From Brucella oryzae (GTDB lineage Bacteria; Pseudomonadota; Alphaproteobacteria; Rhizobiales; Rhizobiaceae): a DNA stretch of 64,000 nt. Below the pieces are notes generated by a model that saw nothing but the letters and a program-made list of their open reading frames with translations, was not told the origin of the DNA and did not search any database. The stretch is taken from contig JAAVLL010000003.1 of assembly GCA_012103035.1 (NCBI GenBank), forward strand, positions 1 to 64,000, written 5' to 3'. The translations under genes and the position numbers were made by a program. Shown here piece after piece: positions 5,424 to 43,494 of this stretch (its first letter is position 1; each line of letters begins with the position of its first letter).

Positions 5424-5437
5424 CGTTGGAGGCATAA

Positions 5438-23397: not shown

Positions 23398-23642
23398 CTT
23401 GAGTGCACGTAGAAAATTTAAGTGCTTGCGTCCCATCAGCTTGTCTGCCTCGCGGCGATGGCAGACGCGGGAAACTTCCGTCGTCGTCTAGACGGCGAGA
23501 AGTGCAGGCAAAGAGCGCAATATCCGGGCTTCCGCCATGTTGGCAAACACCCGGATATTGGTAAGGCCCACTGGGCGAAAGCTCTTCAAAGTGCCGCGAT
23601 AGGACGCCGCTATCGTCAAGCGTCGGCTTCGCCTGGCAGCAA
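23398..23642. other. junction between IS-rich zone and aromatic cluster
   Basis: 245 bases without a recognisable gene. A minus-strand frame ending near 23490 (LTIAASYRGTLKSFRPVGLT, then ARILRSLPALLAV) reads like the tail of a protein but is not identified. It may be a remnant from the join between two DNA segments. Confidence 0.3.
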
Positions 23643-24851
23643 CTACTTCAGCATCTCAGACGAGACTGCTCCGTCGAGGCCCGTTGTCCCGTAAAGCCAC
23701 GCAACTGAATCATGCCAATCCTCAGCGGTCTTCGCGCGCATCATCGCATTGCGAAGCCGCGCATGGGCGCCGGCCGGATGGTAGATATGTTGACCGATCT
23801 CGCGAGATTGAAGCTGAATGCGCGCGGTACGAAGCGCGCGCTTCGAATTGGCGCGAGGAGAGCGCTTTCAAGGCTGCCTTCGTTGCCCTCGAGCTCCGCG
23901 GCAAGGCAGACGGCGTCTTCCATTGCCATACAAGCACCCTGGGCAAAATATTGCAGCATCGGGTGTGCAGCATCGCCCAGCAACGCGACCCGCCCATCGA
24001 CCCAGTTCGATACGGGATCGCGGTCACAAAGGACCCAAAGTTTCCAGTCTTTGCCGCGCTCGATCACCTGGCGAGCGACCGGAGCCACATGCGCGAAACC
24101 TTTGGCGACCTCTTCTTTCGTGACCGGCAAGCCCGCAACCGGTTCCGCCGCGTCGTTATGGTAGGTCACCACCAGATTGAAGGTTTTCCAACCGGAAAGC
24201 GGATAATGCACGATATGGCATTTTGGGCCGGCCCAAAGTGTAGCCGCGTTCCAGCGAAGGTCTTCGGGCATCTCTTCGATCGGAATGACGGAACGATATG
24301 TGGTGTGCCCCGAAACGCGGGGGCGCCATCACCGACGAGCTTGCGGCGTATGTTCGACCAGAGCCCATCGGCCCCGATCAGAGCCCTACCGACGACCGCT
24401 TCGCCATTGGCCAGGAACGCTGTGACGCTGGAACCATCCTGATCATAGGTTTTCACCTCCGACCCGACGCGCAGCTCAACCAGCGGGTTTTCCTGGCAAG
24501 CCCGCAGAAAGACGCCGAACAGTTCGCCACGATGGACGACTGCGTAGGGATTTCCAAAGCGGGTGCGAAACGTATCGTCGAGCGGGATACGCGTAACTTC
24601 CTCGCCGGTCATGGCATCCATGAAGCGCAGGCTGTCAATATACACAGCCATGCGCCGCGCCATGTCGCCGACGCCGAGATAGTCGAAAGCGTGGAAGGCA
24701 TTCGGCCCAAGCTGGATGCCCGCGCCGATTTCACCAAGTTGCGGCGCCTTCTCCAGGACGATGGAGCGAAACCCTTTGCGGGCGAGGCCCAAGGCCGCTG
24801 CAAGGCCGCCAATGCCGCCCCGGCGATGATAATGGGAAGCTGTTCGGACAT
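23643..24851 (-). pseudogene. 3-hydroxybenzoate 6-hydroxylase / salicylate-5-hydroxylase-like FAD monooxygenase, frameshifted
   Basis: Class A flavoprotein monooxygenase. It has the Rossmann motif GGIGGLAAALGLARKGF, the NADPH/FAD DG motif LIGADGLWSNIRRKLVGD and the GD motif GRVALLGDAAHPMLQYFAQG. Similarity to the NagX/XlnD group and its place in a gentisate operon indicate hydroxylation of 3-hydroxybenzoate to gentisate. The first break is in the C4 run at 24818-24821, just after MSEQLPIIIAG; a second lies near 24270 and a third near 23840. The correct C-terminus is AEDWHDSVAWLYGTTGLDGA with the stop at 23643. Last gene of the hyu-gentisate unit. Confidence 0.75.
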
Positions 24852-24901
24852 GATATTTCCTCCACAAGCAGCCCGCGCGTTCGCAACGGGCGTAGTTCTC
24901 T

Positions 24902-25545
24902 TTATTCGCTATCGGGTTGACGGGATGGGTGCGCGGACGCAAAGGCCGCAAGCGCATCGCAGGCATGCCCAATTTCAACGAGCCGCGGCATGGCCGAGAG
25001 GTCGACGCCGAAGCGGTTTGCGGAATAGAGTTGGGGACAAGGCAGATGTCCGCGAGGCTCGGACGCGCGCCAAAAGCAAATGGACCGGAACGATCTACCT
25101 TCGTCAGCAGAGCTTCGCACGCAGCAAGCCCGTCACCGATCCACCGGCGACACCAGGCGTCGAGTGCTTCCTGCGACTGACCGAGTTCTGTCCTCAGATA
25201 ATCCAGCACCCGCAGATTCTGCAGCGGATGGATGTCGCACGCGATCGCCAGTGCAAAGGCTCGAACCTGAGCGCGGCCAATCGCGTCCGCCGGCAGGAGC
25301 GGTGGCTCGGGAACTGTTTCATCCAGCCATTCGGCGATCGCAAGCGATTGCGTGAGAACCGCGCCGTCGACTTCAAGGGCCGGCACGAGGGCTTGAGGAT
25401 TGAGCGAACGGTAAGCCGGTGCCTTCTGTTCGCCACCGCCCCGCCGCAGGTGGACGGAAACAGCATCGTAGGAAACGCCTTTTAAGTTGCAGGCGATGCG
25501 GCAACGATAGGCTGCCGAACTGCGGAAATAGCCATGCAGAATCAT
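24902..25545 (-). pseudogene. maleylpyruvate isomerase, zeta-class glutathione S-transferase type, one frameshift
   Basis: The N-terminal thioredoxin domain starts MILHGYFRSSAAYRCRIACN, with the zeta-class Ser motif SSAAYRCR, followed by SLNPQALVPALEVDGAVLTQ. A helical domain (PLQNLRVLDYLRTELGQSQE) and a C-terminus ending ACDALAAFASAHPSRQPDSE come next. Zeta-class GSTs isomerise maleylpyruvate (or maleylacetoacetate) with glutathione; the setting favours maleylpyruvate to fumarylpyruvate. A one-base loss in a C run (G4 at 25033-25036 on the plus strand) breaks VPQLYSANRFGVDLS. The start overlaps the preceding gene's stop by four bases (ATGA). Confidence 0.82.
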
Positions 25546-26246
25546 GCTTCGGCCTCCCCGATCGTCAGGGGAGACGGGAGGAAGACCGTCGATTTCTCCG
25601 ACCACGACATTGCCCGGCATGACTGCGCCGACCCCGCGGGCGTGCCCGTGAAGATGAGGTCGCCGGCATCAAGATGGTAGAAGCCCGACAGGTGCGCGAC
25701 GATTTCGGGCACAGACCAGACGAGATCGGAAAGACGCGCGTCCTGGCGAGTCGTGCCATCCACGTCAAGACGGATGCGCTGTTTTCCGACGGCGCCGAAG
25801 TCGGTTGCCTTGACGATGTCCGACACCACCGCCGACTGTTCGAAATCCTTGCCGAGATCCCACGGCCGCCCCTTGGCGCGCGCATCAAGCTGCAGATCGC
25901 GGCGCGTCATGTCGAGCCCAGCGGCATAGCCGTAGATGGCCGGCGCGGTCTCGTCCGGGCGGAGGCGGAAGGCTGGCCCACCGATGGCGACAACCAGCTC
26001 CATCTCATAATGGAAATTTGCGGTGCCCGGCGGATAGGGTAGCGTCAAACCGCTGCTCACGGCCGACAGCGGCGACTTTAGAAAATAGAAAGGCGCCTCG
26101 CGGTCGACCTCGACGCCCATTTCCTTGGCGTGCTCCGCATAGTTGCGGCCGACACAGAAGATGCGATGAACGGGATAGGTCGCCTCTTCTCCAAGGACCG
26201 CGATGGAGGGAAACGCCGGAGACGGAAACAGTTTGCGGGACGTCAT
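25542..26246 (-). pseudogene. fumarylpyruvate hydrolase (FAH family), frameshift near the end
   Basis: FAH-fold hydrolase: YPVHRIFCVGRNYAEHAKEM, metal-binding ANFHYEMELVVAIGGPAF, then YGYAAGLDMTRRDLQLDARA and DLIFTGTPAG. The expected product splits fumarylpyruvate into fumarate and pyruvate, the last step of the gentisate route. The final 25 codons are in another frame (VGAVMPGNVVVGEIDGLPP) with a break near 25635. The start MTSRKLFPSP gives the usual length of about 234 residues. Tightly coupled to the downstream isomerase. Confidence 0.82.
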
Positions 26247-26305
26247 TGATGTTCTCCTGTCTGAGGCGCCCACGCGGCGCCATCGAATTGCTTGCCGAGT
26301 CGTGG

Positions 26306-26911
26306 TTAGCTCTGCTGATCGTTCGTACTGATGCTCGTTGGCCGGATCTCGCCCGGCACGTCGCTTAATCGGCCGCCATTTCCGAGAGCCACGGCGCTGA
26401 GCCAAAGCGTGACGGCGCGTTCGCGAACCATCTGCCTCGGCGTCACCCGGCGGCCCGTCAGCGAAACGACCGCACGGTCCCATGCCGCATCCGTCAGGTC
26501 ACGCCATTCGACATTCAGATGTGCCTGGGCATGCTCGAAGAGGTAGCGCAACGCGTGGGCCGGAAGGCAGGCACCCAGCACCTCGTCATCGGGCTCCTGT
26601 TCGGGGTCGCCAAGACTTTCCTCCCCGCGTTCTTCGCGCGCGGCTTCTGCGATGCGCGCCATCGCGCGGGCCTCGTACCCGACGCGAGCGACAATCAACC
26701 GGCGACCGACCCCGTTCAGGGACGAACTGCCGTCGAGCGCCACATCGTCGAGCTCGTTAAGCTTGCGGGCAAAATAGGCCGCTCCTCGTCGTGCCAAGAG
26801 AAGGTCGGAAGCCGGGGCCGCGGCTGAATCATACCGTGCGCCCTTGCCTTGCCGAGCCCGGAGCGCGGCGAGCGCCTCCCGCTCGTCGAGTGGTCGCTCT
26901 TCCACGTTCAT
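26306..26911 (-). CDS. maleylpyruvate isomerase-like protein (mycothiol-dependent/DinB-like family)
   Basis: 201 residues, uninterrupted. SDLLLARRGAAYFARKLNEL then DVALDGSSSLNGVGRRLIVA and ALRYLFEHAQAHLNVEWRDL match the N-terminal DinB-like domain of the mycothiol-dependent maleylpyruvate isomerase family. In that family a metal-binding His lies in a 'GWxRxHVxAH' segment. Here the same place reads GVGRRLIVARVG, so that ligand appears to be lost, while E and H of FEHAQAHLNVEW remain. Alphaproteobacteria lack mycothiol, and a glutathione-type isomerase is in the same operon. The role is therefore uncertain. Confidence 0.65.
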   Translation of the reverse strand: MNVEERPLDEREALAALRARQGKGARYDSAAAPASDLLLARRGAAYFARKLNELDDVALDGSSSLNGVGRRLIVARVGYEARAMARIAEAAREERGEESLGDPEQEPDDEVLGACLPAHALRYLFEHAQAHLNVEWRDLTDAAWDRAVVSLTGRRVTPRQMVRERAVTLWLSAVALGNGGRLSDVPGEIRPTSISTNDQQS

Positions 26912-28010
26912 CTCGGTTCTTCCTCAACGAACACGCGGTCAAAATGCAGGCGCTCCATGATCGGTGCATCGGAAAAGCGGAAGAGATCGAACCGCGTTTC
27001 GGCCTGCAGCGACCAGGATATCCAGGACGGCACGACGAACAGATCGCCGATGTCGAGCCGGTGTTCCACATCACCGAGCACAACAGAGCCGCGACCATCG
27101 AACACCTGGAAGACGGATGACCCCACCTCACGGCGTGGCGGCGTCTGCGCGCCCGCCCTCAGCCGGTGAAACTCGGCACGAATGGTCGGCATGACATCGC
27201 CGCCGGTCGTCGGGTTGACGAAGCGTATGGCGGCATGGCCCTGTCCAACCGTTGCGGGCTGGCCTTCATCCTCCAGAAGAAGCTGCTCGGTCAGCGCCCT
27301 GTCCGTGTGCTCCCATCGGTAGGCGCCGATGGGCGAGCTGACGGTGCTCTGCAAGCCGGACAGCGGACGCAGACCTGGATGGCACCACAGGCGCTCGCCG
27401 CGTGAGAAACGCGGCGTCGCGTAGTCCGTCACCCGCTCAGAACCGAACTCGAAGAAGCCGACATCGTTCTGGTAGGAAAGGGAATATCCAACCCGTCGAT
27501 CCAGGCCATCGGCTGGTCGGTATCGTTATGATGGCCATGGAAATGCCATCCCGGCGTCAGCAGGAAATCGCCACGACTCATGCGAACAGGGTCGCCGTTC
27601 ACAACCGTCCAGACGCCCTCGCCTTCTACCACGAAACGGAAGGCATTCTGGGCATGACGATGCTCAGGTGCGGTTTCCCGCGGCCCGAGATACTGGATCG
27701 CCGCCCAGAGCGTCGGGCTCACATAGGCGTTGCCGCCGAGGCCCGGATTTGCCAGTCCAAGCGCTCGTCGTTCGCCGCCGCGCCCAACCGGCACGAGATC
27801 GCCGGAGCGCTTTGCCAGCGGATAGAGGTTGGCCCATTTCCAGACATGCGGCACGGCCCTCGGTTTGGGATGAACCGGCATGAGATTCCCGAGCTGCGTC
27901 CACAGGGGCTTCAGATGCTCGCGCTCGAAGCCGGCATAGAGTTCGCGCAGTTCCGGCGTATCGTCCGGCTGCATAGCGTTCTTGACCGCCGCGTGGTCCT
28001 TCGTCGTCAT
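26908..28010 (-). pseudogene. gentisate 1,2-dioxygenase, one frameshift
   Basis: Two cupin domains. The N-terminal one holds the Fe(II)-binding site region TAPEHRHAQNAFRFVVEGEG and LLTPGWHFHGHHNDTDQP. The C-terminal one includes RAEFHRLRAGAQTPPRREVG and DIGDLFVVPSWISWSLQAET. The enzyme opens the ring of gentisate to maleylpyruvate using O2. Adding one T to the short T run at 27477-27479 (A3 on the plus strand) gives the native GLDIPFSYQNDVGFFEFG and joins the halves into about 366 residues, the usual size. The stop overlaps the next gene's start (ATGA). Confidence 0.88.
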
Positions 28011-28027
28011 GATTTTCCTCCTCCTGA

Positions 28028-28812
28028 TCAGAAGGCTGCGCGCCGGGCACGAGCCTGTTCGACCCAGAGTTCCCAGGGCCGATGAACCTGCGCTTCGATG
28101 TTCTCGGCTGCCGCGCGGCATTCCCCTCTGTGAGGTACACGACCTCACCGAGCTTGCTGGCATCCATCAGGTAGCGGGCATTGAGTTCGGCATAGATTGC
28201 CCGATAGACCGCGCGCTGGACGCTGTCGGCGACGACGGTGGAACCATGGCCGCGCATCAGCACGATATCGCTGGCATCGAATTTCCCGGCGAGAGCGCGT
28301 CCGAGATGGTTGTTGCTGACAAGGGTCGGTCGCGTCGCCGCCCGCCTCGCGGATCTCGTAGACCGGCACATCCTGACCGACGAAACCGGCCATGTGGAAC
28401 ACGGCGTTCATGCGGAAATTCTTGGCGATGCTGAACGGTACAATGGCGTGGAATGGCTGTGCACCACGGCCTTGACGTCGGGCCGGCGACGGTAGATTTC
28501 GCCGTGGATGAAACGTTCGAGATAGACCTTGCGGCCAGCAGCGTCGACCGCATCGCCATCGAGCGTGAATTCGACGATATCCTCTCGGCTCACACGGCCC
28601 GGCGCCATGTTGCGGGCGAGAAGGAACCGGTCGGGCCGCTTGTCATGACGAACGCTGACATGGCCGAAGCCATCCACCACGCCCTGGTCGAAAAGGATAT
28701 GATTGGCTGCAACCAGGTCCTCGATCAGTTGCGGGGACGGCGGTGGCCCAGCCTCGGCTGTGTCGGCGATCGCGACGGCAATGGGCTGATGCGGATTGTC
28801 AGGCGAACACAT
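28028..28812 (-). pseudogene. class II aldolase/adducin family protein, frameshifted
   Basis: Class II aldolase fold: ANHILFDQGVVDGFGHVSVR, EIYRRRPDVKAVVHSHSTPL (metal-binding HSH), then VLMRGHGSTVVADSVQRAVY and ENIEAQVHRPWELWVEQARA at the C-terminus. Besides sugar-phosphate aldolases the family includes aromatic-acid decarboxylases such as 3,4-dihydroxyphthalate decarboxylase. In this operon a C-C cleaving or decarboxylating step on an aromatic side chain is plausible, but the substrate cannot be read from sequence. Two or more frameshifts (near 28410 and 28330). The start is taken at MCSPDNPHQP. Confidence 0.75.
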
Positions 28813-28869
28813 GAGCGTAATCCTTGGCAAGTCTGTGAAAACAGATCGGCTTCTTTCCTGCCCGGCCGA

Positions 28870-30320
28870 TCAGCCGAGCATGATGTTGATGGTCTTCGCT
28901 TCGGTGTAGGACAGCATCTCCTCGATGCCCTCTTCGCGACCGACGCCGGAATTCTTCATTCCGCCGAAGGGAACGCCGAGGAAATGGTTGGAGCAGCCGT
29001 TGATCCACATGTGGCCCGAACGCACGCGGCGCGCGACGTTGAGTGCGTTTTTGATGTCGTTGGTCAGACGGCGCCCGTCAGGCCGTATTCCGTACTGTTG
29101 GCGAGGGCGATAGCCTCTTCCGCGGTCTTCCAGCGGCCAACAGACAGAACCGGACCGAAGACCTCTTCCTGCCAGAGCCGCATGCCGGGTTTGACGTCGG
29201 CATAGACCGTCGGCTCGACCCAGAAGCCCTTTTCGAAGCCGCGCCCGACAGGCCGCTTGCCTCCGGTCATCAACCGCGAACCGTCGTGACGGGCCGTTTC
29301 GAAGAAGGACAGCACCTTGTCGTACTGCACACGGGAATTTAGCGGCCCCATATCGGAAACCGGATCGGCGGGGTCGCCGACCTTCAGCCCCGCAACGCGC
29401 TCGACCACGCGCGCCAGCACGGCATCGTGAATATCCTCATGCAACAGAAGGCGGCTGGTCGAACCGCAGGACTGCCCCTGCCAGGTGAAGTTCATGCCCC
29501 GAACGGCGGCGGCGGCGATCACGTCGGGATCCATGTCCGGGAACGCGATCAGCGGGTTCTTGCCACCCAGTTCCAGCGTGACGTGCTTGACCGCGACCTC
29601 GGCCGCTGCCCGCTGGATCGCACGCCCCGTCACGGGAGAGCCGATGAAAGCGATGCGCTTGATATCGGGATGGCGGACAATCGCGTCGCCCACCGTCGCG
29701 CCCGTTCCCGTCAAGATGTTGAACACCCCCGGCGGTAACGCTTCGCGCGCAACTTCCGCCAGGACGAGGCGGAGAGCGGACTGGTTTCCGGCGGCTTGAC
29801 GACGACGGCATTGCCGGCGGCGAGCGCCGCGGCAGTCCGGGCGACGGCGAACATCAGAGGATGATTGAACGGCGCGATGCGGGCGACGACACCGTAGGGC
29901 TCACGCACCGTGATATGCAGATTCTCGGCTGTTGCCGGAATGGTCTCGCCCTTCAGCTCGTGGATGAGGCCCGCATAATAATCCAGGCTCTCCACAGCCA
30001 TGCCGACATCGCCGCGCATCGGCGTGATCGTATTGCCGGTATCGGCAACTTCGACATGCAGGATTTCTTCCGCCCGCGCCTTCAGCGCGGCTCCGAAACC
30101 CGCAGGCGCGCCCACGCTCCGACGGTGTCAACGCCGCCCAGGCGGGCCAAGCTGCTTCCGCCGCCTCGACAGCACGGGCGACATCGTCGCGTGTGCCGCG
30201 CGGAGAGCGGCCGATGATTTCCTCGGTCGCGGGATTGATGGAGTCGTCGAATTCCCCGGTAGAGCCGTGCACCAGCTCGCCACCGATCAGCATGCGATCG
30301 GATGCGGTCACGTAAGCCAT
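28870..30320 (-). pseudogene. NAD(P)-dependent aldehyde dehydrogenase, frameshifted
   Basis: Complete ALDH when three or four frames are joined (about 483 residues): SINPATEEIIGRSPRGTRDD, IAPFNHPLMFAVARTAAALA, the catalytic Glu in TLELGGKNPLIAFPDMDPDV, the catalytic Cys in FTWQGQSCGSTSRLLLHEDI, WVEPTVYADVKPGMRLWQEE, and a C-terminus GVPFGGMKNSGVGREEGIEE. It oxidises an aldehyde to a carboxylate. In context it could turn an aromatic aldehyde such as 3-hydroxybenzaldehyde into 3-hydroxybenzoate (inference). Breaks near 30115, 29725 and 29070. Confidence 0.82.
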
Positions 30321-30365
30321 GACAATGTTTCCTGTTAATGTGTGGCGCCGAGCGCCATCTGATCG

Positions 30366-31124
30366 TCAGTAAGTGATCATGCCGCCATCGACATTCAGAA
30401 GCTGGCCGGTCACCCAGCGCGCCTGTCGCGAAAGCAAAATGCAATGGCGTCCGCAATGTCATCCGGGCCGCCCGCCCGTTTGAGGCACTGTTGCTCGATC
30501 ATCGCTTCCTTCTGCGCCGGTGTGACGGTTGCCCGCTCCACCTCGGTGAACGTCGGGCCCGGCGTCAGGGTATTCACACGCACGCCGAACGCGCCGAGTT
30601 CGCGCGCCATTGCCCGGACAGGCCCATGACGCCAGCTTTTGACGAGACATAATGGGCGTAGTTCGGCCGTCCGAAATGAATGGTCGAAGACGCTATATTG
30701 ACGACCGATCCTTCCCCGGAAGCCACCAGCGCCTCGCGAGCCGCGCGCGTCATATTGAACACGCCCTTCAGGTTGACAGCCTGCACGCGGTCCCATTCTT
30801 CACTTGGGATGTCCCAGAAGGGGCGCATTTCGAGCGTCGAAAAGATGGAGGCATTGTTCACCAGGCCGAAAACGCCGCCAAAGGCATCCTTGGCCGTTTG
30901 AATGGTGGCGCGGCAGCTCTCCTCGCTGGCGACATCCGTTCGAACGAAGAGCCGGCGACCGGTGCCAGGTGCCGCCTCGAGCGCCACAGCCTCGCCCTTT
31001 TCGGCATTCCAGTCGGCGATCAGAACATCGACGCCCTCGGCCACCAGGCTGAGCGCCAGCCGTCGGCCGATACCCTGCGCCGCACCGGTGACGACAATAG
31101 CGCCTTTTCAGGATAACGAGTCAT
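30366..31124 (-). pseudogene. short-chain dehydrogenase/reductase, frameshifted
   Basis: Classical SDR of about 250 residues. The first break is in the A run of MTRYPEKGAIV (plus 31106-31109), where one extra A restores VTGAAQGIGRRLALSLVAEG. Visible elements: cofactor Asp (VLIADWNAEKG), FGLVNNASIFSTLEMRPF, the catalytic Ser region NIASSTIHFGRPNYAHYVSS with Tyr and Lys (YVSSKAG), and NTLTPGPTFTEVERATVTPA. The end is VTGQLLNVDGGMITY. Likely oxidises a hydroxyl to a carbonyl on the pathway substrate; which one is unknown. Confidence 0.8.
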
Positions 31125-31137
31125 AACTTTCTCCCAG

Positions 31138-33280
31138 TCAGGCCGCAGTGTCCGTTGTGTCGGTGATGTCGAGCAGGCATGTAACGAGCGATGCGTCTCC
31201 CTTGCGCACGGTTTCGGCTTCGAGCAGAGAGCCACAATCGGTGCAGACATGTTCGCGCAGTTCCAGATCCGCGTGGGTGCGGATGTGCGGGCCATAGGAC
31301 GAGGGCTCCACGCGATAGCTACGCGCCCGCACCTTCCAGTCTTCGTCGGTAGGGCCGAGATCGCAGCCGCAACCACACCTGAACCTGCCGTTCGCGACCT
31401 GCATCTCGCCCGCACGCGCCACCCTCTGCGGTGCATTGCCGCCAAGCCGTCGAGTCCGGATCGCATGACGCTCGGCCTCCGTTTCGGCGGCGGCAACGCG
31501 ATCGTCCACGATGATGACGCCATATTGCGCGCGCGCAGCCTCGACGCTTACATGCCCGTTCAGGACATCCACAAGCACCGCGGCCAGATCACGTTCCAAG
31601 GGATCGCCGTAGCCGCCACCGCCCTGGAAGGCGTATCCGAGCACATCACGCTGGCTGAGCCCCATGCGACCCGGCTTCGGCCCCAGTTGCTCGACGCCGA
31701 CGTCGAGAAGCGCCGCCATGTTCCCGGCAAGGCCCGCGATTGTCGCCGGATCACCGGCGTCACGAAGCAGGATATTGCGGCCGCACGCGCCCGGCAGGCC
31801 GCCGAACTGACCGGTCGAATTGGGAACTTCGACCCCATGGCCGAGCATCATCGCCTGCAATCCGTCCGTGCCATAGGGAACGATAGCGAGGGCCGTGCCC
31901 GCGCCGCCTCGCTGGCGGCCCGGCCCGCCGGTATCACGAACAAAGGAACGGAACAGGTAAAGAAACGGCCCGTTGCCTTCGTTCGCCTCGACGTTGGCGA
32001 TGGCGGGACGCGGGACGCAATAGTCGCCAGAACCGTCGAGGCCATCATGGTCCGGAAATGCGCCGCCGCCGCCGGCCGTCGAGTCGAGCAGGAACGTGCC
32101 GAACGGTGCACCGTCTCGGTCCTTGCCTGCGAGCGTCATCACCATCATATGGCCCTTGGTCACCGCCTGGCCCTCATTCCGGTGCTCCGGCGAGCAGGCG
32201 ACCATGCGTGACAGGGCCGCGACTACGACGTTCTGCACGATCCAAGCCGTCGAGATCGTTCCCGAGGAAATCGGAGCCGGCCATGTCGCGTTGCACAGAA
32301 TGCCCTCGGGTGCGACAAAATCGACGGCCCGCATGATACCCTCGTTCCAGCGGATACGCGGCGCGAGAATGGGCAGGAGGCCGGTCAACGCCGCCCCTCG
32401 CATGCCTGAGGCGGTGCAATTGATGAAGCCCGGCGCCTGCGGCGAGGTCCCGGTCATGTCGAGGGTGAGCCGGTCGCCTTTCTTGGTGGCCGTCACGCAA
32501 ACCTGGTAGAGTACGTTGTCGTGGCCATCATGCTCGATGTAGTCGCGAGCACGGAACACGCCGTCGGGCAAGGACGACAGCACCTGTCGCACCTGCCGCT
32601 CGGAGCTGGCAATCTCCTCGCGCATGATGGTATCGACGACATCACCGCCATAGCGGTCCATCAGTTCGACAAGCCGGCGCACCGCGACGTTGTTGGCCGC
32701 GATCATGGCCTTGAGGTCGAGGCCGAGCACATGGGGCAGGCGCGTCATGCCCATGATCATCTGCCAGAGGTCCTGGCGCAGGACGCCGCCCTCGACAATC
32801 CGGATACCGGGCAGCAGCATCGCTTCCTGCTGGATCTCCGTGGCGCCGATCGCCCAGGAGCCAAAGCTCATGCCGCCGACGTCAAGCTGGTGAGCGCAGG
32901 AGCCAGCCCAGGCGACGTGCCGGCCATTGTGGAAAACCGGCGCGACGATGGAAACGTCGGGCTGGTGGATCGCACCGCGATAGGGGTCGTTGAGGATGAA
33001 CATATCTCCTTCACGAATCGGGATTGTCCGAGAAGTTCTCGTTGATCGAGCGGATCACCGAGGACATCGTGCCGGTATGGAAGAGGACCTGCGGCCCCAT
33101 CGTGACGATCGAACCGTCGGCAAGGTAGAGCCCGTTGTTGAAGTCCGTCGCCTCGGTGACCACAGGGGAGCCGGAAACGGATTTCAGCGTGATCGCCTGC
33201 TCTTCGGTGATCGCCTGAAGCTTGTTGCGTACGACCTCGAAGGTGATCGGATCGATGGTTTTCTTGTCGCTCGCGGCCAT
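31138..33280 (-). pseudogene. HyuB/oxoprolinase-B family carboxylase-type subunit with C-terminal acetone-carboxylase-gamma-like zinc domain
   Basis: Long HyuB protein (about 713 residues). It starts DPITFEVVRNKLQAITEEQA, shifts frame near 33008, then reads REGDMFILNDPYRGAIHQPD, the family's hallmark, and LDMTGTSPQAPGFINCTASG. After the HyuB domain come CGCGCDLGPTDEDWKVRARS and ELREHVCTDCGSLLEAE. These closely follow the cysteine pattern of acetone carboxylase gamma (CxCGH...NWKLxARV...REYxCPxCG). That fusion points to an ATP-dependent ketone carboxylase of the acetone/acetophenone type rather than a simple hydantoinase. It begins 1 base after hyuA. Confidence 0.75.
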
Positions 33281-33281
33281 G

Positions 33282-35384: not shown

Positions 35385-35522
35385 TCCGCTCCTCCCGAAT
35401 TGGCTGCGCACCTGCCGAACCCTCCGCGCCATACGGCACGGCCTCATCATTTTGTGGCGAAGGTGTCCGCGGGATCTTTGGCGCCGCGGTTGGAGGAAGA
35501 TAGCCGTCGTTTTAGAGCCTAT

Positions 35523-35549
35523 CCAATATATAATTTCACGAGAACCATA
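35523..35549 (-). promoter_or_regulatory. 27-bp conserved upstream motif, hyuA copy
   Basis: On the plus strand it starts CCAATATATAATTT and ends GAACCATA, with 22 of 27 positions identical to 43468-43494 at the head of the transporter operon and no gap. It lies 139 bases upstream of hyuA. The LysR gene between the two units is the natural candidate to bind it. The AT-rich half may also supply a -10 box. Confidence 0.6.
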
Positions 35550-35594
35550 GTCATTTGCGTATGCATTATCGCAGCCTAACGGCTTGCCGGCCAT

Positions 35595-36558
35595 CTACCT
35601 GATGGGCAGCTTGACGTCGGAAGACTCAAAACCGACCGGCGGCTGGCCGTCCACCGCCGCGTCGCGAACATAATCCATCAAGCTGGACTGAAAATCGGAG
35701 AAGCTTTTGTCCCGTCTGCTCACCAGAAAGACAGGGACAGAAAGATCAACGCCTGGCGTCGTAACACGACGCAGGAGACCGCTCGCATTCGTCTCGCACC
35801 GATGTCTCCATCACGAACGCGACGCCTGCATGAGCACGGACCGCCTGTTTCATGGCCTCAGGATGCCCAAGTTCGAGAACGACTCGTCGACCAACGATGC
35901 CATGGGCGCGCAGTGCGTCCTCCTCCAGCTCCCGGCGAACCTGATTGCGCGGTGACGATACGAAGGGAAGGGCAGCTATTTCCTCCGGCGACACTGCTTC
36001 ACCGGCGAGGGTACTGCCAGCGGCCGCAACCAGCACGAGACGCTCGGTCCATAGTTTTTCGACATTCAGTCCATCCACGTCATGGCGAGGATCTAGAATG
36101 CACACACCAAAATCGCAGCTCCCATCGCGAACGGAGGCGGTCACGAGTTGGGGATTGGAGACGAAGCGAGATACCTCCTGTCGCGTGCACCTGGCGAAAC
36201 GTGGAAAAAGGGGCGGGAGCACATAGGAAGCGACGGTCATCGACGCCGAGACAATTGCCGTCCCCACTTCGGCATCCCCTGAGATATTGAGTTCGCGCTC
36301 CAATTCGCGTGTCCGTGTGATGACTTCGTTGGCCCAGGTATGTACCCGTCTGCCGGCAGCCGTCAGCACGAGGCGTCGGCCGCTACGCTCGAACAGCCGG
36401 ACGCCCAGTTTTTCCTCCAGGAACCGGATATGTGCCGTCACAACCGGTTGCGCGACGCGCATGCGCTCGGCAGCACGCGTCACGCTCTGGAATTCACAAA
36501 CCAGACAAAAGATTTCCAGCTTGTGCAATGTCATCTGCGACGCGAAAACCCGTTCCAC
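35595..36558 (-). pseudogene. LysR-family transcriptional regulator, one frameshift
   Basis: N-terminal winged helix (MTLHKLEIFCLVCEFQSVTR, AAERMRVAQPVVTAHIRFLE, EKLGVRLFERSGRRLVLTAA) and LysR substrate-binding domain (GTAIVSASMTVASYVLPPLF). The frame breaks near 35800; the continuation ASGLLRRVTTPGVDLSVPVF then LVSRRDKSFSDFQSSLMDYV completes a protein of about 320 residues, stop at 35595. It sits at the end of the transporter unit and just upstream of hyuA. It is the probable activator of both units. Start is 36558 or the internal MTLHKLE at 36534. Confidence 0.85.
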
Positions 36559-36630
36559 TTTCCCTCCACAGGCGGCTCGGCACGTTTCACAAATGCCGGC
36601 CGCAGCGAAGCCTTATCACAATAGCTGACG

Positions 36631-36929
36631 TCACCCCACCGCGAGTGTCGTATGCTCGATGAACGGTTCCGCATCGAAGAAGCCGCCTACCGCCTCGATG
36701 AAGATCAGAAAATCCGGCGAACCCATGAAGCCGACCGTGTGGTCCTCCACCTTTCCCACGCAACCAGAAACACATAGGCGCGCTCGTTCTCGACCGAGCG
36801 ACGAACCGAAAACCCCTTGTTTCCGGCCGCCTTCAGGAAAAGAGGGCGCAGCTGCGTCACCGCCTCCTCGAACGCATCACCGCAACCGGATTTCACGACG
36901 ACGCGTGCGATTTCCAGAATCCCGCTCAT
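36631..36929 (-). pseudogene. small putative quinol monooxygenase (ABM superfamily), one frameshift
   Basis: About 98 residues: MSGILEIARVVVKSGCGDAF, EEAVTQLRPLFLKAAGNKGF, SVRRSVENERAYVFLVAWE, then in the next frame KVEDHTVGFMGSPDFLIFIE and EPFIEHTTLAVG. This ferredoxin-like alpha+beta fold without cofactor occurs in YgiN-type quinol monooxygenases and other small oxygenases. It may protect against or process a reactive quinol formed during aromatic breakdown. The start follows a good site (CAAGGGGAAG) and lies 21 bases after the aldo/keto reductase gene. Confidence 0.72.
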
Positions 36930-36950
36930 ATCTTCCCCTTGCATCCCGCT

Positions 36951-37817
36951 TCATTCCGGGATCGCGCCGATGCCGTTCAGCGCATCAAGCGCCTTGGCTG
37001 GCAGAACGATCTTCGCTGCGGTGACATTTTCCTTGAGATGAACAAGCGAAGACGTGCCCGGAATCAACAGGATGTTCGGCGATCGCTGCAGCAGCCAGGC
37101 AAGCGCCACCTGCATCGGCGTGACCGACATCTCGCGGGCGACGTCCGACAGCGCCGCCGATTGCAGCGGCGAGACACCGCCTAACGGGAAGAACGGCGTG
37201 TAGGCGATTCCATCGGCCGCCAGTTCGTCGATGAGCGCGTCGTCCTGCCGGTTTGCGACATTGTAGAGGTTCTGGACACAGACAATTTTCGCTATCGATG
37301 TGCCTTCGCGATATTGCCCGTGGCTGACATTGCTCAATCCGATGTGGCGGATCAACCCCTTCTGCTGAAGCTCAGCCAGCGCCTCGAGCGGCTCCACGAT
37401 CGAGTCTTCCGTGCGGCCGAAAGCGTCGCCGACTCGAAGGTTTACAACATCGAGCACGTCCAGCCCGAGATGACGCAGATTGTCCATGACGGCGGCAACC
37501 AGTTCCGCCTTCTGGCGCGCCGGCACCCAGGATTTATCAGCGGTGCGCGCGAAGCCAACCTTCGTGATGATGACCAACCCGTCTGGGTAGGGCGAAAGCG
37601 CCTCGCGGATCAGTTGATTGGAAACGTGCGGACCATAGAAGTCCGACGTGTCAATATGATTGACGCCGAGTTCAACAGCCGTCCGGAGCACGGCAAGCGC
37701 CGTGTTCTTGTCGCGTGGCGGCCCCCAGACCTCGGGCCCCGGCAGTTGCATCGCACCGAAGCCCATACGCGCTACGCTCAAAGCGCCGCCGGCGAATCTA
37801 TAAGTTGCATTACCCAT
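36951..37817 (-). CDS. aldo/keto reductase
   Basis: 288 residues, uninterrupted. TIM-barrel AKR with catalytic Asp and Tyr (GVNHIDTSDFYGPHVSNQLI), Lys (DGLVIITKVGFARTADKS) and NADPH-binding end (VALAWLLQRSPNILLIPGTS). The position usually holding the catalytic His reads LDVVNLRVGD, as in some bacterial AKR subfamilies. It reduces an aldehyde or ketone, or runs in reverse; the substrate in this cluster is unknown. One of the few intact genes of the unit. Confidence 0.88.
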   Translation of the reverse strand: MGNATYRFAGGALSVARMGFGAMQLPGPEVWGPPRDKNTALAVLRTAVELGVNHIDTSDFYGPHVSNQLIREALSPYPDGLVIITKVGFARTADKSWVPARQKAELVAAVMDNLRHLGLDVLDVVNLRVGDAFGRTEDSIVEPLEALAELQQKGLIRHIGLSNVSHGQYREGTSIAKIVCVQNLYNVANRQDDALIDELAADGIAYTPFFPLGGVSPLQSAALSDVAREMSVTPMQVALAWLLQRSPNILLIPGTSSLVHLKENVTAAKIVLPAKALDALNGIGAIPE

Positions 37818-37863
37818 TGATCACCCCTTCTGGCTGCTGCGCTATAACGTTCGCCGTCCGCGC

Positions 37864-38661
37864 TCATTCGTCCGGCGGCCACTTCACCGGATCCGTGAGA
37901 ACTGCCGCCGAGAAACCTCCATCGACCGCGATGTCGACGCCATGCACCCGCCGAGACGTCATCCAGCAAATAGGCAATCGTGGGCGCGATATCCTCCGCC
38001 ACGGCGGCACGGCGCGTGCGCGCGATGTCGAAGTCGATGAACTGGTCGCCTAGCGCCGAACGGAATTCGCGCAGCATTGGAGTAGCTACGGGTCCCGGGC
38101 TAACTGTGTTAATGCGCCGCTCGGACGAAATCCATTCCACGGCCTTCATCTGCGACCATGCGATCAGCGCCTGCTTGCTACGGGAATAGGAGTGCAGCCC
38201 GTCCTGCGGATGCTGTTTCAGCCAGGCAAGGCCGGCTTCGTAGTCCGGCGTCAGCGCCAGCTCTTTGAAGAACGGGAACCATTCAAGCCAGCGGATGGCG
38301 GTGCCGGAGGCGACATTCACCACGGAAGCCGTAGGCGACAGCATGGGCTCGATGCGGGTGACGAGATGGCGGGTGCCGAGGAAGTTCACTTTGAACTGGA
38401 GTTCGGTTGGCGCAGCAGAGGATGCGCCCGCCACGTTGGCGATGCCGTCGAAGGTTCCCCGAGCGCGGCGAGGACGCCGTCAATGCTGTCGCGATCGGCA
38501 AGGTCGATCTTGCTAAACGTATCGAACGATATGTCGGCGGGTGCTTCGCTGCGGTCGACGCCGACCACCTTCGCTCCGCTCTCCACCAGCAAACGCGCAG
38601 TCGCGGCGCCTATACCAGACGAAGCGCCCGTGACGAGAATTCTCTTGTTAGCCAATGACAT
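37864..38661 (-). pseudogene. short-chain dehydrogenase/reductase, frameshifted
   Basis: SDR: ILVTGASSGIGAATARLLVE, the cofactor Asp in KVVGVDRSEAPADISFDTFS, FDGIANVAGASSAAPTELQF after correction of a short T run near 38455, the active-site region SVVNVASGTAIRWLEWFPFF, Tyr/Lys in YSRSKQALIAWSQMKAVEW, and INTVSPGPVATPMLREFRSA. The second break, near 37945, leads into RRVHGVDIAVDGGFSAAVLT and the stop at 37864. About 265 residues. It resembles 3-alpha-hydroxysteroid-type SDRs; the substrate is not predicted. Confidence 0.8.
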
Positions 38662-38685
38662 CTATTTACCTCCTAATGTGTTGTG

Positions 38686-39717
38686 TCACGAATGGGAACG
38701 TTCTGCCTGCAACGCCGATGCAGGGAATTCACGCGGTGGCGCGTGGGAGACAGGCACTAGCGGTGCCGATGAAAAACGACGGATGATCCCCAAAATACCG
38801 CCCGGCTCCACGATGATGATGGCAATAGCCACGACGCCGAGGATCACGAAATGCCAGGCACCGAGATTGGCGAAGTAGCCGCGGATCGCGAAGAAGAAGA
38901 TGGATCCGAGGATCGGCCCCTCTATGCGTCCCACCCCGCCGATCACCGCCGCGAATAGCGGGTAGATCGTCCAATCGACCAAGCTGAACGATGCGTTCGG
39001 TGAGATATGAAGCTTCTGCAGCGTGTTAAGCGCACCGACGATGCCGAGGATCGGGGCGACGCCAATCATGCAAGCGATGCGGGCGCGCGTGATATTGACG
39101 CCGACGCTTGCCGCACCCGCCTCATTGTCACGCATGGCCGTCAGGCCGAGCCCTATCGGGCGCCGCAGGAACAGCCAGGTTCCGATGAACGTTATCACCG
39201 CTAGCGCCAACGTGATCCAGTATATCGTTTCAATGCGCTCGGCGGGTCGAGCGCCGAAGGCCTTGGCCAGAGAGACCGGGATGCTTACGCCCGTGCCGCC
39301 GTTGAAGGCCGGCAGTTTTCCGGAAATCAGCATCACCGTTTCGGCCACGACCCATGTGCCGACTGCCAGATAGGCCGCTCTCAAACGCAGGACGAAAACC
39401 GTGAAGGGAACAGCGAGCAGCACGGCAATGACGGCTGCAAGCAGAAGTGACAGCCATGGGCTAAAGCCCAACAGTGTGGCGCAAGCGTAGAAGCCGTAGG
39501 AACCCGCTCCGACGAGGGCATGCTGGCCCAGGGTGACAATATCCGCATAGCCCGCAAGCACGTTCCATGTCATCGCCAGGGTGAGCGTTATGAGGAATGT
39601 AGTTCCGAACGCAAGCAGACCGCTTTCGGCGCCAAAGGGTAGCGCAATGAAAGCCAAACCGAAGAGAACGAGAACGGCGCGGCCGATCCAAGTGACATAA
39701 TCCGAAGAATGCATCAT
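38686..39717 (-). CDS. livM: branched-chain-type ABC transporter permease (LivM)
   Basis: About 343 residues, uninterrupted from MMHSSDYVTWIGRAVLVLFG. LivM features: LAMTWNVLAGYADIVTLGQH, FGVGAYG-like ALVGAGSYGFYACATLLGFS, YWITLALAVITFIGTWLFLR, TAMRDNEAGAASVGVNITRA and IGGVGRIEGPILGSIFFFAI. Multi-pass inner-membrane protein. Together with LivH, LivF, LivG and the binding protein it makes a HAAT-type importer, here probably for the aromatic substrate. The open frame continues upstream to 39948, but that part overlaps livH. Confidence 0.88.
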   Translation of the reverse strand: MMHSSDYVTWIGRAVLVLFGLAFIALPFGAESGLLAFGTTFLITLTLAMTWNVLAGYADIVTLGQHALVGAGSYGFYACATLLGFSPWLSLLLAAVIAVLLAVPFTVFVLRLRAAYLAVGTWVVAETVMLISGKLPAFNGGTGVSIPVSLAKAFGARPAERIETIYWITLALAVITFIGTWLFLRRPIGLGLTAMRDNEAGAASVGVNITRARIACMIGVAPILGIVGALNTLQKLHISPNASFSLVDWTIYPLFAAVIGGVGRIEGPILGSIFFFAIRGYFANLGAWHFVILGVVAIAIIIVEPGGILGIIRRFSSAPLVPVSHAPPREFPASALQAERSHS

Positions 39718-40580
39718 GCGGACCTTCCGAAAACAGACCTTGCGGACGAAGGAGAAAGACGAGGAGAAAGACAATGTGTCCAGCCAGCGCCTGCCATGCG
39801 GTATCGAATTGCGCTCCGACACTCTGGGCGATGCCAAGCACGATTCCCCGGCAAGGGTACCCCACAGACTGCCTAGTCCGCCGAGGACCACGGTTTCGAA
39901 GGCAATCAGCATACGGCCCTGACCGCTGCTCGATCGAAGTTGGTCCAAATGGACAAAAAGCCGCCGTGATTCCGATGGAGATGCCGATAATTGCCATCGA
40001 AACGGCGTATAACCGTGTCGTGGGCAGGCCCATCAAGGTTGCCGTCGCCGGGTTTTCCGCGACGGCCCGGATGCGTGTGCCAAGCCGCGTGCGAAACAGG
40101 ACGTAGTTGAGCACCATGATGAGCAAAACTACGGACCCGAAGATCAGCAGCGGCAATATACCGACGGTGATCTGATCAGCCAAAGCAACGGAGGCGATAT
40201 CGAGATTGCCCGCCGGCACTTTACGGCTATCCGCCCCGAAAGCGCCGAGCAATCCGTTCTGGATGCAGATGGACAGGCCGAAGGTCACAAGCACCAGCGG
40301 CATCAGCCCCCTTGAGCACCCGCTCCAGCAGCAGCCTCTGGAGAAGCCATGCGCAGACGGCACAGACGACGATGAGGATCGGAGCAGCCACCAACGGATC
40401 AAGGCCGAGCCCCACCACCAGCGCCCACTGCGCGAAGCAAGCGAGCACGATGAGATCGCCATGGGCGATGTTCACGAACCGCATCACACCAACTGACAGC
40501 GAGAGCCCGACGGCATAAAGCGCGTAAAGCCCGCCGATCAGAACACCCTGAAGAATTTGGTTTAGCCATATTGAGGTCAT
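39717..40580 (-). pseudogene. livH: branched-chain-type ABC transporter permease (LivH), frameshifted
   Basis: Starts MTSIWLNQILQGVLIGGLYA then SVGVMRFVNIAHGDLIVLAC. The next frame gives MPLVLVTFGLSICIQNGLLG, RTRLGTRIRAVAENPATATL, MGLPTTRLYAVSMAIIGISI and, after another shift, a C-terminus VFLLVFLLRPQGLF. Breaks lie near 40310, 39940 and 39840. The start overlaps the stop of livF (ATGA), showing translational coupling. Confidence 0.85.
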
Positions 40581-41324
40581 GCGTGATATTCTCCGCTGGC
40601 CTTTTCTGAACCGAAATAATGGATCATCACCGTTTCCCGATCTGTCTCGTGCGGATTGCCGGCCAGCGTGACGCGGCCTTCGAGCATGCAATAGAAACGA
40701 TCGGCCACGGAGAGCGATCGCGTGATGTCCTGTTCGACCAAAACAATGCTGAGCCCCGGCCCGCAGCTCTTCGAGCAGCCGGTAAAGGTCGTTGATGACG
40801 GCAGGTGCAAGCCCGAGGCTTATTTCGTCGCATAGCAACAGTCTCGGGTTCATCAGCAGCGCCCGCCCGAGAGCGATCATCTGCTGCTGACCGCCGGAAA
40901 GTTCACCGGCCTTCTGCCGTCGGCGTTCCTTGAGGATCGGAAACCAGCCGAACACGCGGTCGAGGTCGATGCCGCCCCTACGATTCACCTGCCGCCCGAT
41001 ATCGAGGTTCTCCTCGACCGTCAGGTGGAAAACAGCCGGCGCCCTTCCGGCACGAGCGCAATGCCGCCGGCTATGATGTCGGACGTGCCTTTCCCATTCA
41101 GCATCTCGCCGTCCCATCGAACGACGCCCGTTGAGATGGTCGCCGCCCCATTACAGCATTGAGCAGCGATGATTTCCCCGCGCCGTTGGCACCGATGATC
41201 GACACGATCTCGCCGGGCGCCACCGTCAGACTGAGATCGTGTACCGCCTGGAACTGGCCGTAGCGGACGCAGAGACCCTCAATGGCGAGAAGTGGCTCGA
41301 CACCATCCGCTCGAGCTGTTTCAT
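40577..41324 (-). pseudogene. livF: ABC transporter ATP-binding protein (LivF), frameshifted
   Basis: LLAIEGLCVRYGQFQAVHDL, Walker A SIIGANGAGKSSLLNAVMG, VFHLTVEENLDIGRQVNRRG, signature LSGGQQQMIALGRALLMNPR, Walker B LLLCDEISLGLAP, and the LivF-type C-terminus SIVLVEQDITRSLSVADRFY. Breaks near 41145, 41050 and 40755. The start overlaps the livG stop by four bases. The ATPase sits on the cytoplasmic face of the LivHM permease. Confidence 0.87.
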
Positions 41325-42090
41325 ACTCCAAGATAGACCTCCTGTACGCGCGGATCGGCAAGCACGTCCTCCGGTTCGCCGGTAGTCAGGATTCTGCCGC
41401 CGTTGAGAACAGCGAGCCGCGTGGCGGCCCGCCGCAGCGCGTGCAGAACATGTTCGATCCAGACGATCGTGGTTCCGCGTGCGTGGATCGCACAAATGAT
41501 TGCCAGCAACGCCTCGCATTCGAGGTCGGTCAGCCCGCCTGCGATCTCATCGAGAAGCAGCAGTTCGGGCTTCTGGACCAGCGCCTTTGAAAGCTCCAGC
41601 CGCTTCAGATCCAACAAAGTCAACCGTCCGGCAGGCAAGGCGGCTTTCGAAAGCAGGCCCGTCTGATCGAGCACGTCCATTGCCGCGTACTTCGCCTCTC
41701 TTACTGAAAGGCCGCCGCCATGGATTGCCGGAACGAGTACGTTCTCGAAGACGCTCATATCTGTGAAAGGCTTCGGGACTTGGAATGTGCGGGCGATGCC
41801 CAGCCTACACCGGTCCCACACCGCCATGCGTGAAACGTCCCTTCCCTTGTAGACAACCTTTCCGATACCGGGCCTGAGATTGCCGGCGATGAGATTGAAC
41901 AGTGTGGTCTTACCGGCGCCGTTCGGCCCGAGCACGCCAGAAGTTCTCCCTCGCCGACATGGAGGTCGAGATTGTCTATGATGATGAGGCCGCTGAACCC
42001 ACGGCTGAGCGACAGGAGATCGAGCACGTTGCTTACCTCGCGACAGGACGATGCAGGAAGGGAATCCGGCAGGCTAGCGCGCCGCATCAC
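41321..42090 (-). pseudogene. livG: ABC transporter ATP-binding protein (LivG), one frameshift
   Basis: N-terminal part VLDLLSLSRGFSGLIIIDNL and DLHVGEGELL, then in another frame Walker A LGPNGAGKTTLFNLIAGNLR, GIARTFQVPKPFTDMSVFEN, a LivG-type signature region TLLDLKRLELSKALVQKPEL with Walker B LLLLDEIAGGL, and TIVWIEHVLHALRRAATRLA. The break is near 41938, at the Walker A junction. About 255 residues when joined. Coupled to livF. Confidence 0.87.
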
Positions 42091-42147
42091 TTTGCAATGC
42101 GACGCGGCCGCCTCCAGCCACCCGAAAGCGGCAATAGAGCTTAGCGG

Positions 42148-43409
42148 TCAGCCACCAATCAGGATCGGGCTGGCCGTCACCGCGATTGACGGCGCGAAGC
42201 TATTGTCGACGATCTGCCGTTCATATGGGAATTTCTGCCCCTTGAACCATTGCACGAAGGTGAGATCCGTCTTCGACGTGTTCGGAAGCGGGCCGGTCTT
42301 AAAGTCGATTGTACCGGCGACGGATTCGTAGTGGGACGAGGCAATGGCGTCGCGGATCGATTCAGGCTTGTCTATGTCCTCTGTACGCTTCAACGCATCG
42401 AGTACGAGTTCGAGTTGCGCATGTACATGGCCAAGCGTCTGCTCCCACTGGCGGCCGGTCGCCGCTGCATAGGCATCAGCCAGTTCATGTGCAGTCTGGC
42501 CTGTCAGACCGGACTTGAAAGGATGGAATTGCGTCCACAGGATGGGATTGGCGATTCCAGCCGCCCTGTCACCGAGAGAATACTGCACGTCGGCGAATTC
42601 GCACGACTTGCTCGCCACCACCGCCTTCGGCAGAAAACCCTGCTGCTGGCACTGGGACCAGAACAGGGCGAATTCCGGCCCTGGCGCAAGCGAACTGACC
42701 GCCTGGGCACCACCCGTCTTCAGTGCCGCGATCTGTGCGGCATAGTTGCTGACCGGCAGATCGAAACGGCCGGGATCGACCACCTTGTAGCCTTTTTCGA
42801 AAAACAGCTTCGTCCAGATTTCGCCAAGGATGTGGCCGTCCGCATCGTTCGGCCACAGCGCGCCGGCCACCTTGTCGATTGGAAGCTTGTCCCAAAAGCG
42901 ACAATGGACTTGCCATAATCGTCACCGGAAAAGGAAAAACAGTAGGTCCACTCAAACCCGACCTTGGGGTCACCACTGCGCCCAAAGAACCAAGGCTCCA
43001 ACGGACAAACGGAACCAATGCACGGGACGCCATTCAGCTCGCTCTGGTCAGAAACCGGATTAACGGTCTCCGGCGAGGAGAAAGCGGCAATCACGTCCAC
43101 CTTGTCCTGAAGGATCAGCTCTTGCGCCACTTCGGCGGCGCGGTTGGGATTGCTCTGCTGGTCTTTGACGACGATCTCGATCGGATGTTGCCGGCCGTTG
43201 ATCGCAATCGATCCACCCGTCGCCTTCTGCACCTGCTCCAAGATGAAGGGGATGGGCTGGTGGAATGTAGCCATCTGACCGGAAGCCGGCGTCGTCAGGC
43301 CGATTTTGATTGTTCTCGGCACAGCAAGAGCCGGAGTGGGCAAGAACGGCAGAGCACCAGCTGCCGCCACGGCTCCCATGAAACCGCGACGCGTCATTTC
43401 ATTCCTCAT
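42148..43409 (-). pseudogene. ABC transporter substrate-binding protein (HAAT/LivK-like, Tat signal), one frameshift
   Basis: Begins MRNEMTRRGFMGAVAAAGAL, a twin-arginine signal (TRRGFM) with an Ala-rich core and a cleavage site near ALA-VP. The mature type-1 periplasmic-binding fold follows: TIKIGLTTPASGQMATFHQP, IEIVVKDQQSNPNRAAEVAQ, DKVDVIAAFSSPETVNPVSD. The break is in the T run at 42894-42897 (A4 on the plus strand); one more T gives IVAFWDKLPIDKVAGALWPN and a protein of about 420 residues. It heads the transporter unit, 58 bases after the conserved upstream motif. Confidence 0.87.
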
Positions 43410-43467
43410 GTTCTCCTCCCATGAGTTTGATGTGATGAAATGGCTAACACGCCGAGCAACGAGCGAA

Positions 43468-43494
43468 CCAATATATAATTTGATAGAAACCATA
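43468..43494 (-). promoter_or_regulatory. 27-bp conserved upstream motif, transporter-operon copy
   Basis: Plus-strand sequence begins CCAATATATAATTT and ends GAAACCATA; same length and 22 of 27 bases as the copy at 35523-35549. It is centred about 72 bases upstream of the binding-protein start, a usual place for a LysR activator site. See the hyuA copy. Confidence 0.6.

Follow-up and report, generated by a model that had tools for sequence, protein, structure and literature searches.

A gene cluster of Brucella oryzae raises the question of how an aromatic compound might be led into the gentisate pathway, and at which compound the upper and lower halves of such a route would meet. The cluster lies in the window analysed here, the first 64,000 nucleotides of a contig of 285,348 bases (JAAVLL010000003.1; contig C3 of genome G000). 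Its operon region extends on the minus strand from about 43.5 to 23.6 kb, and every gene type named there in a first-pass annotation of this DNA was found. Gene order, gene families and conservation were read directly from the sequence, and the chemistry discussed below is predicted from them. The cluster is considered a real one, for the most part ordinary below 3-hydroxybenzoate (3-HB) and of an unusual, variant make-up above it.

In the order of transcription, a HAAT-type transporter, a second short-chain dehydrogenase/reductase (SDR), an aldo/keto reductase and an ABM-domain protein precede a LysR regulator, HyuA, HyuB, an SDR, an aldehyde dehydrogenase (ALDH) and a class II aldolase-fold protein (AldII). 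AldII is followed by a gentisate-type cupin, an MDMPI-type protein, an FAH hydrolase, a GST-type isomerase and a 3-hydroxybenzoate 6-hydroxylase (3HB6H). From the regulator onward the features are listed below, with identities to the intact operon of another genome (locus L033 of genome G087).

35637..36558, minus strand: LysR regulator of the HyuAB operon, two frame segments (Pfam; segments 78% and 65% identical to L033 LysR)
33273..35384, minus strand: HyuA, ATP-binding subunit, four frame segments (Hydant_A_N, Hydantoinase_A, Hydant_A_C; 78-89% to intact L033 HyuA)
31138..33280, minus strand: HyuB, two frame segments (Hydantoinase_B)
~31141-31400, minus strand: C-terminal gamma-like zinc-ribbon domain of HyuB (PF08882, 20.7 bits for a cut-off of 21; CxC and CxxC)
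30366..31107, minus strand: SDR, three frame segments (adh_short; 84-86% to L033 SDR)
28876..30323, minus strand: ALDH, four frame segments (Aldedh; 72-95% to L033 ALDH)
28055..28869, minus strand: AldII, class II aldolase fold, predicted decarboxylase giving 3-HB, two frame segments (62% and 39% to L033 AldII)
26923..28001, minus strand: gentisate 1,2-dioxygenase-like cupin (GDO), two frame segments (Cupin_2; 85-90% to L033 GDO)
26306..26911, minus strand: MDMPI_N (DinB-like) maleylpyruvate isomerase-type protein, one frame (PF11716; 69% to the L033 protein)
25545..26231, minus strand: FAH-family hydrolase, predicted fumarylpyruvate hydrolase, one frame (FAA_hydrolase, 162 bits; 71% to L033 FAH)
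24905..25545, minus strand: GST-type maleylpyruvate isomerase, two frame segments (GST_N; the L033 orthologue passes the maiA cut-off)
23625..24780, minus strand: 3HB6H, three frame segments (74-87% to the L033 protein; best solved match of a window piece, 4bjy)

The gene order of the window, LysR, HyuA, HyuB, SDR, ALDH, AldII, GDO, MPI, FAH, GST and 3HB6H, is repeated in the L033 operon, beside which a sugar-type ABC transporter lies on the opposite strand. Identity to this operon is about 70-95% for most segments of the window, the exceptions being one LysR piece (65%) and AldII (62% and 39%). A further locus, L017, is colinear with the window as far as the end of its contig. Judged from the intact and colinear operon of L033, the gene set is not due to chance.

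The compound handed over between the two halves is very probably 3-HB. The place of 3HB6H beside AldII is taken in Phyllobacterium (L005) and Brevibacterium (L016) by a hydroxylase of the MobA type (625-648 aa), that of L005 matching the solved 3-hydroxybenzoate hydroxylase 2dkh with 910 bits. MobA-type enzymes are 4-hydroxylases of 3-HB, acting at a different ring position and leading to protocatechuate. AldII adjoins 3HB6H in Labrys KNU-23 (L054), both being 11-12 kb from HyuB, and the genome behind the Methylobacterium record has MobA and AldII as a pair (L053), the viewed parts of that contig (8-24 and 46-65 kb) having no overlap with the HyuAB stretch. Among eight loci with AldII at least 71% identical to that of L033 (L033 included), six have a 3-HB hydroxylase at most 8 kb away. 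The exceptions are L017, the contig of which stops within the GST gene while 3HB6H lies near the end of another contig of the same genome, and p1 of A. leguminum, with 3HB6H about 16 kb off across the origin of the record. Among AldII proteins too distant to enter this comparison, MobA, or a 3HB6H-like gene together with gentisate genes, was found near AldII at L016 and L060. In the AldII tree, 3HB6H and MobA neighbours alternate within one clade (support 0.995, with one inner node at 0.28), and hydroxylase neighbours turn up again in two further clades. Two dissimilar hydroxylases thus alternate beside AldII, and the compound shared by them is 3-HB, as predicted for the end of the upper half in the first-pass annotation.

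The association was also observed among whole genomes, a 3-HB hydroxylase being scored as 3HB6H at E 1e-110 or MobA at E 1e-180. It was present in 8 of 13 HyuAB genomes versus 46 of the 199 genomes sampled from the order (24 + 22, without overlap; Fisher p 0.005), and in 6/6 genomes with HyuB at 80% identity or above versus 43/196 (Fisher p 0.00016), p values which ignore kinship between genomes that are not independent. Three HyuAB genomes contained in the order sample were kept in the former test and removed from the latter. The 13 genomes leave out the plasmid-only record W01, in which no 3-HB hydroxylase was found, and the B. oryzae genome itself was scored negative because its gene is broken.

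AldII is probably a decarboxylase acting directly before 3-HB. Both by sequence and by fold, it is nearest to the HMPDC decarboxylase of Mesorhizobium loti (2z7b), far closer than to any aldolase, which places it near the class II decarboxylases of the HMPDC/hydroxyphthalate type. AldII is kept beside 3-HB hydroxylases also near NahE/PhdJ-type or thiamine diphosphate (ThDP) enzymes able to supply an aldehyde, labels that were assigned by homology only, as well as in stretches where no ALDH was seen. The first-pass proposal, in which side-chain shortening by an aldolase and ALDH would yield an aldehyde and from this 3-HB, is not supported by these findings. A true aldolase is less likely, as the nearest fold and sequence are those of a decarboxylase and the neighbours suit a step just before 3-HB. 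In the degradation of vitamin B6, to which 2z7b belongs, a diacid is decarboxylated beside a hydroxyl group and a flavin hydroxylase then acts. AldII differs in adjoining a 3-HB hydroxylase and gentisate genes, and so a benzene ring probably takes the place of pyridine.

At L010, an AldII relative lies beside a 463-aa GCV_T-domain protein (2261-3652), of the family of the LigM-like O-demethylases, and at L053 folate one-carbon genes (1173-5468) adjoin the MobA-AldII pair. These neighbours possibly hint at methoxylated aromatic substrates. Another class II aldolase, dhbB, is mentioned as the decarboxylase of a different intermediate in an excerpt of PMC6362003.

The lower half is, by context, predicted to be an ordinary gentisate pathway leading from 3-HB through gentisate to fumarate and pyruvate, in agreement with the first-pass annotation. 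The L033 3HB6H passes the 3-hydroxybenzoate 6-monooxygenase model NF006021 (579 bits, cut-off 459), and the window enzyme was judged through this orthologue (74-87% identical) and not itself scored against the model. The L033 GST passes the maiA-family cut-off (294 versus 171 bits); because that model is named for maleylacetoacetate, its substrate was taken from context. For the cupin, the gentisate 1,2-dioxygenase model TIGR02272 was the best but its cut-off of 442 was missed (L033, 267 bits; L017, 270 bits), and the protein is therefore called gentisate dioxygenase-like, with support from context. Where a single isomerase had been annotated, two isomerase-like genes of unrelated families were found in the operon, one of the GST type and one of the MDMPI/DinB type. 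This pair recurs in L033, L006, L019, L067 and L079. Compared with the known 3HB6H/gentisate pathway, the 3HB6H orthologue and GST isomerase above cut-offs, the cupin and the FAH hydrolase are shared, whereas the extra MDMPI-type protein, the cupin below cut-off and the unusual upper half are different.

The nature of HyuAB was then considered. The chances that it is a carboxylase appear evenly balanced, and a ring-opening hydrolase is a possible but lesser candidate. HyuA is not assignable by score, its bits being nearly equal for hydantoinase (422), acetone carboxylase (410), acetophenone carboxylase (408) and caprolactamase (387). Alpha, beta and gamma subunits are given for the Acx/Apc enzymes, with gamma absent from hydantoinase complexes, in an excerpt of PMC5214803. 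A gamma subunit with four cysteines is present here as a domain fused to HyuB; at E below 0.001, its fold matched only 5m45_C, 5svc_C, 5svb_C, 5svb_F and 5l9w_C, and the four cysteines are kept in 12 of 14 HyuAB loci and in the window. There is no separate gamma gene after HyuB in the window and L033, this place being taken by the SDR gene. A PF08882 search gave no match in the B. oryzae genome but also none in the 14 controls, and so carries no information on this point. The gamma-like domain would fit a carboxylase, as had also been suggested in the first-pass annotation, and the remaining genes point to no particular ketone. The Asp-His-Asp-His metal site of beta subunits in the superfamily is also present, the His and second Asp being found in 14/14 loci and the first Asp and last His being read off an alignment of L033 with CapB, using positions from an excerpt of PMC8453981.

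HyuAB thus shares with Acx/Apc the alpha and beta subunits and, following them, a gamma-like domain with four cysteines, arranged alpha, beta, gamma, but it differs in the fusion of gamma to beta, in a core about equally hydrolase-like and in the extra Apc subunits. No alpha-prime (second ATP-binding subunit) was seen, the window operon and L033 each having a single HyuA; epsilon was likewise not seen, and the L017 proteins fell far below the ApcC and ApcD cut-offs (422 and 202 bits versus 1500 each). An Apc-type complex was rejected on these grounds. With the hydantoinases and caprolactamases (CapAB, N-methylhydantoinase) HyuAB shares two genes, the metal-site residues and HyuA scores equal to those for carboxylases. 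The L017 proteins missed the CapA and CapB cut-offs by far (546 and 248 bits versus 1000 each), and a plain hydantoinase or caprolactamase is weakened by the gamma domain. The Hpe/Acv hydroxyphenylethanone pathway resembles the present one in the idea of an aromatic ketone and ATP-dependent carboxylation, but a kinase and a biotin carboxylase stand there in place of HyuAB, and the word 'hydantoinase' is absent from the portion of text available for that pathway (PMC9618137).

We propose, at a little under an even chance, a plasmid-borne peripheral pathway under LysR control, in the order HyuAB, SDR, ALDH, AldII (decarboxylation) and 3-HB, since the gene order HyuA, HyuB, SDR, ALDH, AldII can be read as pathway order. 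HyuA and HyuB (beta-gamma fused) would activate a hydroxylated aromatic with ATP, by carboxylation or ring opening. The SDR and then ALDH would convert an alcohol through the aldehyde to a carboxylate, giving a diacid of the hydroxyphthalate type, for which 3-hydroxyphthalate is favoured. AldII, as a metal-dependent enzyme of the HMPDC-decarboxylase kind, would remove the carboxylate beside the hydroxyl to yield 3-HB, 3HB6H would form gentisate, and the cupin would open its ring before an isomerase and the FAH hydrolase released fumarate and pyruvate. ALDH is somewhat likely to act directly before AldII. Alcohol dehydrogenases beside HyuAB vary in family (SDR, GMC and iron-containing alcohol dehydrogenase, Fe-ADH), and an ALDH relative was found in 12 of the 14 HyuAB stretches (L005-L018), supporting the sequence alcohol to aldehyde to acid. 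Were the starting compound a hydroxyphthalide-like lactone or a lactam, HyuAB would have to open its ring; were it a ketone, it would have to be carboxylated, and with AldII as a decarboxylase no enzyme stands out for the later cleavage.

Several points weigh against this proposal, beginning with its chemistry, all of which is a prediction. The addition and later removal of CO2 looks wasteful if HyuAB is a carboxylase. AldII lies below the PhtC equivalog cut-off (71 versus 200 bits) and was therefore not filed as PhtC. No AldII relative was detected at E 1e-10 in 5 of the 14 HyuAB stretches (L009, L011, L012, L014 and L015), and the L014 and L018 stretches are without an ALDH relative; in L006, L007 and L008, an AldII relative is present outside the HyuAB stretch. 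A 3-HB hydroxylase was found in the fetched stretch for 2/30 more distant AldII rows (L067 and L079), so the pairing is a property of clades and not of the family. Sugar-type ABC transporters, unusual for aromatic acids, stand at several HyuAB loci.

Different routes through the same genes were weighed. HyuAB might carboxylate 3-hydroxyacetophenone to 3-hydroxybenzoylacetate, which after reduction by the SDR would be split by AldII in a retro-aldol reaction to acetate and 3-hydroxybenzaldehyde, the latter being oxidized by ALDH to 3-HB. Such a route would give every enzyme a role and agrees with the ketone-carboxylase gamma-like domain in HyuB and with the scan of open reading frames of the window, in which neither a CoA ligase nor a thiolase could be recognised. 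It is nevertheless unlikely in view of the nearness of AldII to a decarboxylase and not an aldolase, of its persistence near NahE/PhdJ-type or ThDP enzymes already capable of forming aldehydes and beside hydroxylases in stretches without ALDH, and of the extra Apc-type subunits that were not seen. Quite unlikely is a convergence on 3-hydroxybenzoylacetate, formed by HyuAB from the ketone and by dehydrogenases from a 3-hydroxypropiophenone-type compound, and cleaved by AldII to 3-HB and acetate. The variety of SDR, GMC and Fe-ADH beside HyuAB with the frequent ALDH, and the pairing of AldII with a 3-HB hydroxylase, would suit it, and lignin hydroxypropiophenone routes likewise use alcohol and aldehyde dehydrogenases; yet we know of no class II aldolase-fold enzyme that cleaves aroylacetates, and the nearest relative of AldII is a ring-acid decarboxylase.

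It is improbable that the upper genes act on another substrate and are merely co-located with the gentisate genes. The HyuAB core of L007-L015 and L018 has no gentisate dioxygenase, 3HB6H or MobA in the stretch, and whole-genome searches for L009, L011, L012 and L014 also gave no match above thresholds. Against co-location, the operons of L033, L017 and the window are colinear, the Labrys and Phyllobacterium clusters have 3HB6H or MobA nearby, and the genomes of L007 and L008 carry AldII with a hydroxylase on another stretch.

The plasmid location of the proposed pathway is indicated by the recurrence of window positions 1-26485 as the final ~26.5 kb of the contig, which makes a circular plasmid of ~259 kb, assembled past its own end, probable. 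Between the two copies of this 26.5-kb overlap 50 indels were counted, of which 29 concern one base. Internal frame changes were observed in 9 of the 11 operon genes from LysR to 3HB6H. Residues 178-410 of 3HB6H are in a single frame in the second copy and in two frames in the window, so that at least one frame break is doubtful; the other frame change of 3HB6H and that of GST are common to both copies, and the remaining breaks may be real or assembly errors. In a DNA comparison with a plasmid collection, the best matches covered 5% of the region, namely the cupin gene (78-80%), on Sinorhizobium and Agrobacterium plasmids. Near the region, an element of ~820 bases is duplicated at about 99% identity (10431-11250 and 14557-15375), and 44208-45293 encodes a transposase in which rve and HTH domains were found. 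The genes transcribed ahead of LysR are as follows.

42151..43493, minus strand: HAAT-type periplasmic binding protein in two frames (Peripla_BP_6, N- and C-terminal halves)
38689..42073, minus strand: HAAT-type transporter ATPases and permeases, frameshifted (ABC_tran, BCA_ABC_TP_C, BPD_transp_2)
37781..38479, minus strand: second SDR, C-terminal part only in this frame (adh_short_C2, profile 139-222)
36951..37817, minus strand: aldo/keto reductase of the PRK10376 subfamily (Aldo_ket_red; NF007695, 456.7 bits, cut-off 280)
36705..36944, minus strand: ABM-domain protein of 79 aa (PF03992, 32.9 bits)

When genome contigs were scanned with the intact portion of HyuB, 13 loci of 51-84% identity were obtained, in Phyllobacterium, two Labrys, Methylobacterium, other Rhizobiales and alphaproteobacteria, Sphingomonas, Pusillimonas and three actinobacterial records. 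Gene calling in the fetched loci relied on a simple script for codon usage, which may overlook small genes. A HyuB match at E 1e-100 or below was found in 10/397 genomes of the order, four of them (B. oryzae included) at 82-83% identity, and at E 1e-180 only the B. oryzae genome itself was found among 385 genomes of the class and among 398 of the phylum. The close HyuAB module is therefore rare. In Labrys, a second, distant HyuAB (36-43% identity) with ALDH adjoins 3HB6H and AldII (L054, 3312-9384; L057, 9697-15522); for the second HyuB of L054 Pfam gives the Hydantoinase_B domain only, and the small genes (~100 aa) beside the second HyuAB of both loci had no Pfam match at E 0.01, gamma included. 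On a Niveispirillum plasmid (L018, 13917-18174), HyuAB stands with a dienelactone hydrolase, two alpha/beta hydrolases, LigB, LigA and an AldII relative, and so would have a different ring-cleavage ending.

In line with the first-pass view that no described pathway has this exact gene set, no description of the upper genes was found among the titles listed from the open-licence PMC literature; the words 'aldolase' and 'gentisate' did not occur in the portion of main text searched of the paper on strain AntQ-1 (PMC9836352). It is conceivable, though doubtful as a whole, that HyuA with HyuB(gamma) would be a new two-subunit ATP/bicarbonate carboxylase acting on a hydroxylated aromatic and, with SDR, ALDH and AldII, would form an undescribed hydroxyphthalate route to 3-HB, a benzene-ring counterpart of vitamin B6 degradation. 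If this were true, the decarboxylase would connect hydroxyphthalate-type compounds to 3-HB, and HyuB, with beta and gamma fused, would give the little-understood family of ATP-dependent ketone carboxylases and hydantoinases a simple member of two subunits. Few proteins would suffice to examine both ideas, for which the intact L033 operon and the Labrys and Phyllobacterium clusters provide clean material.

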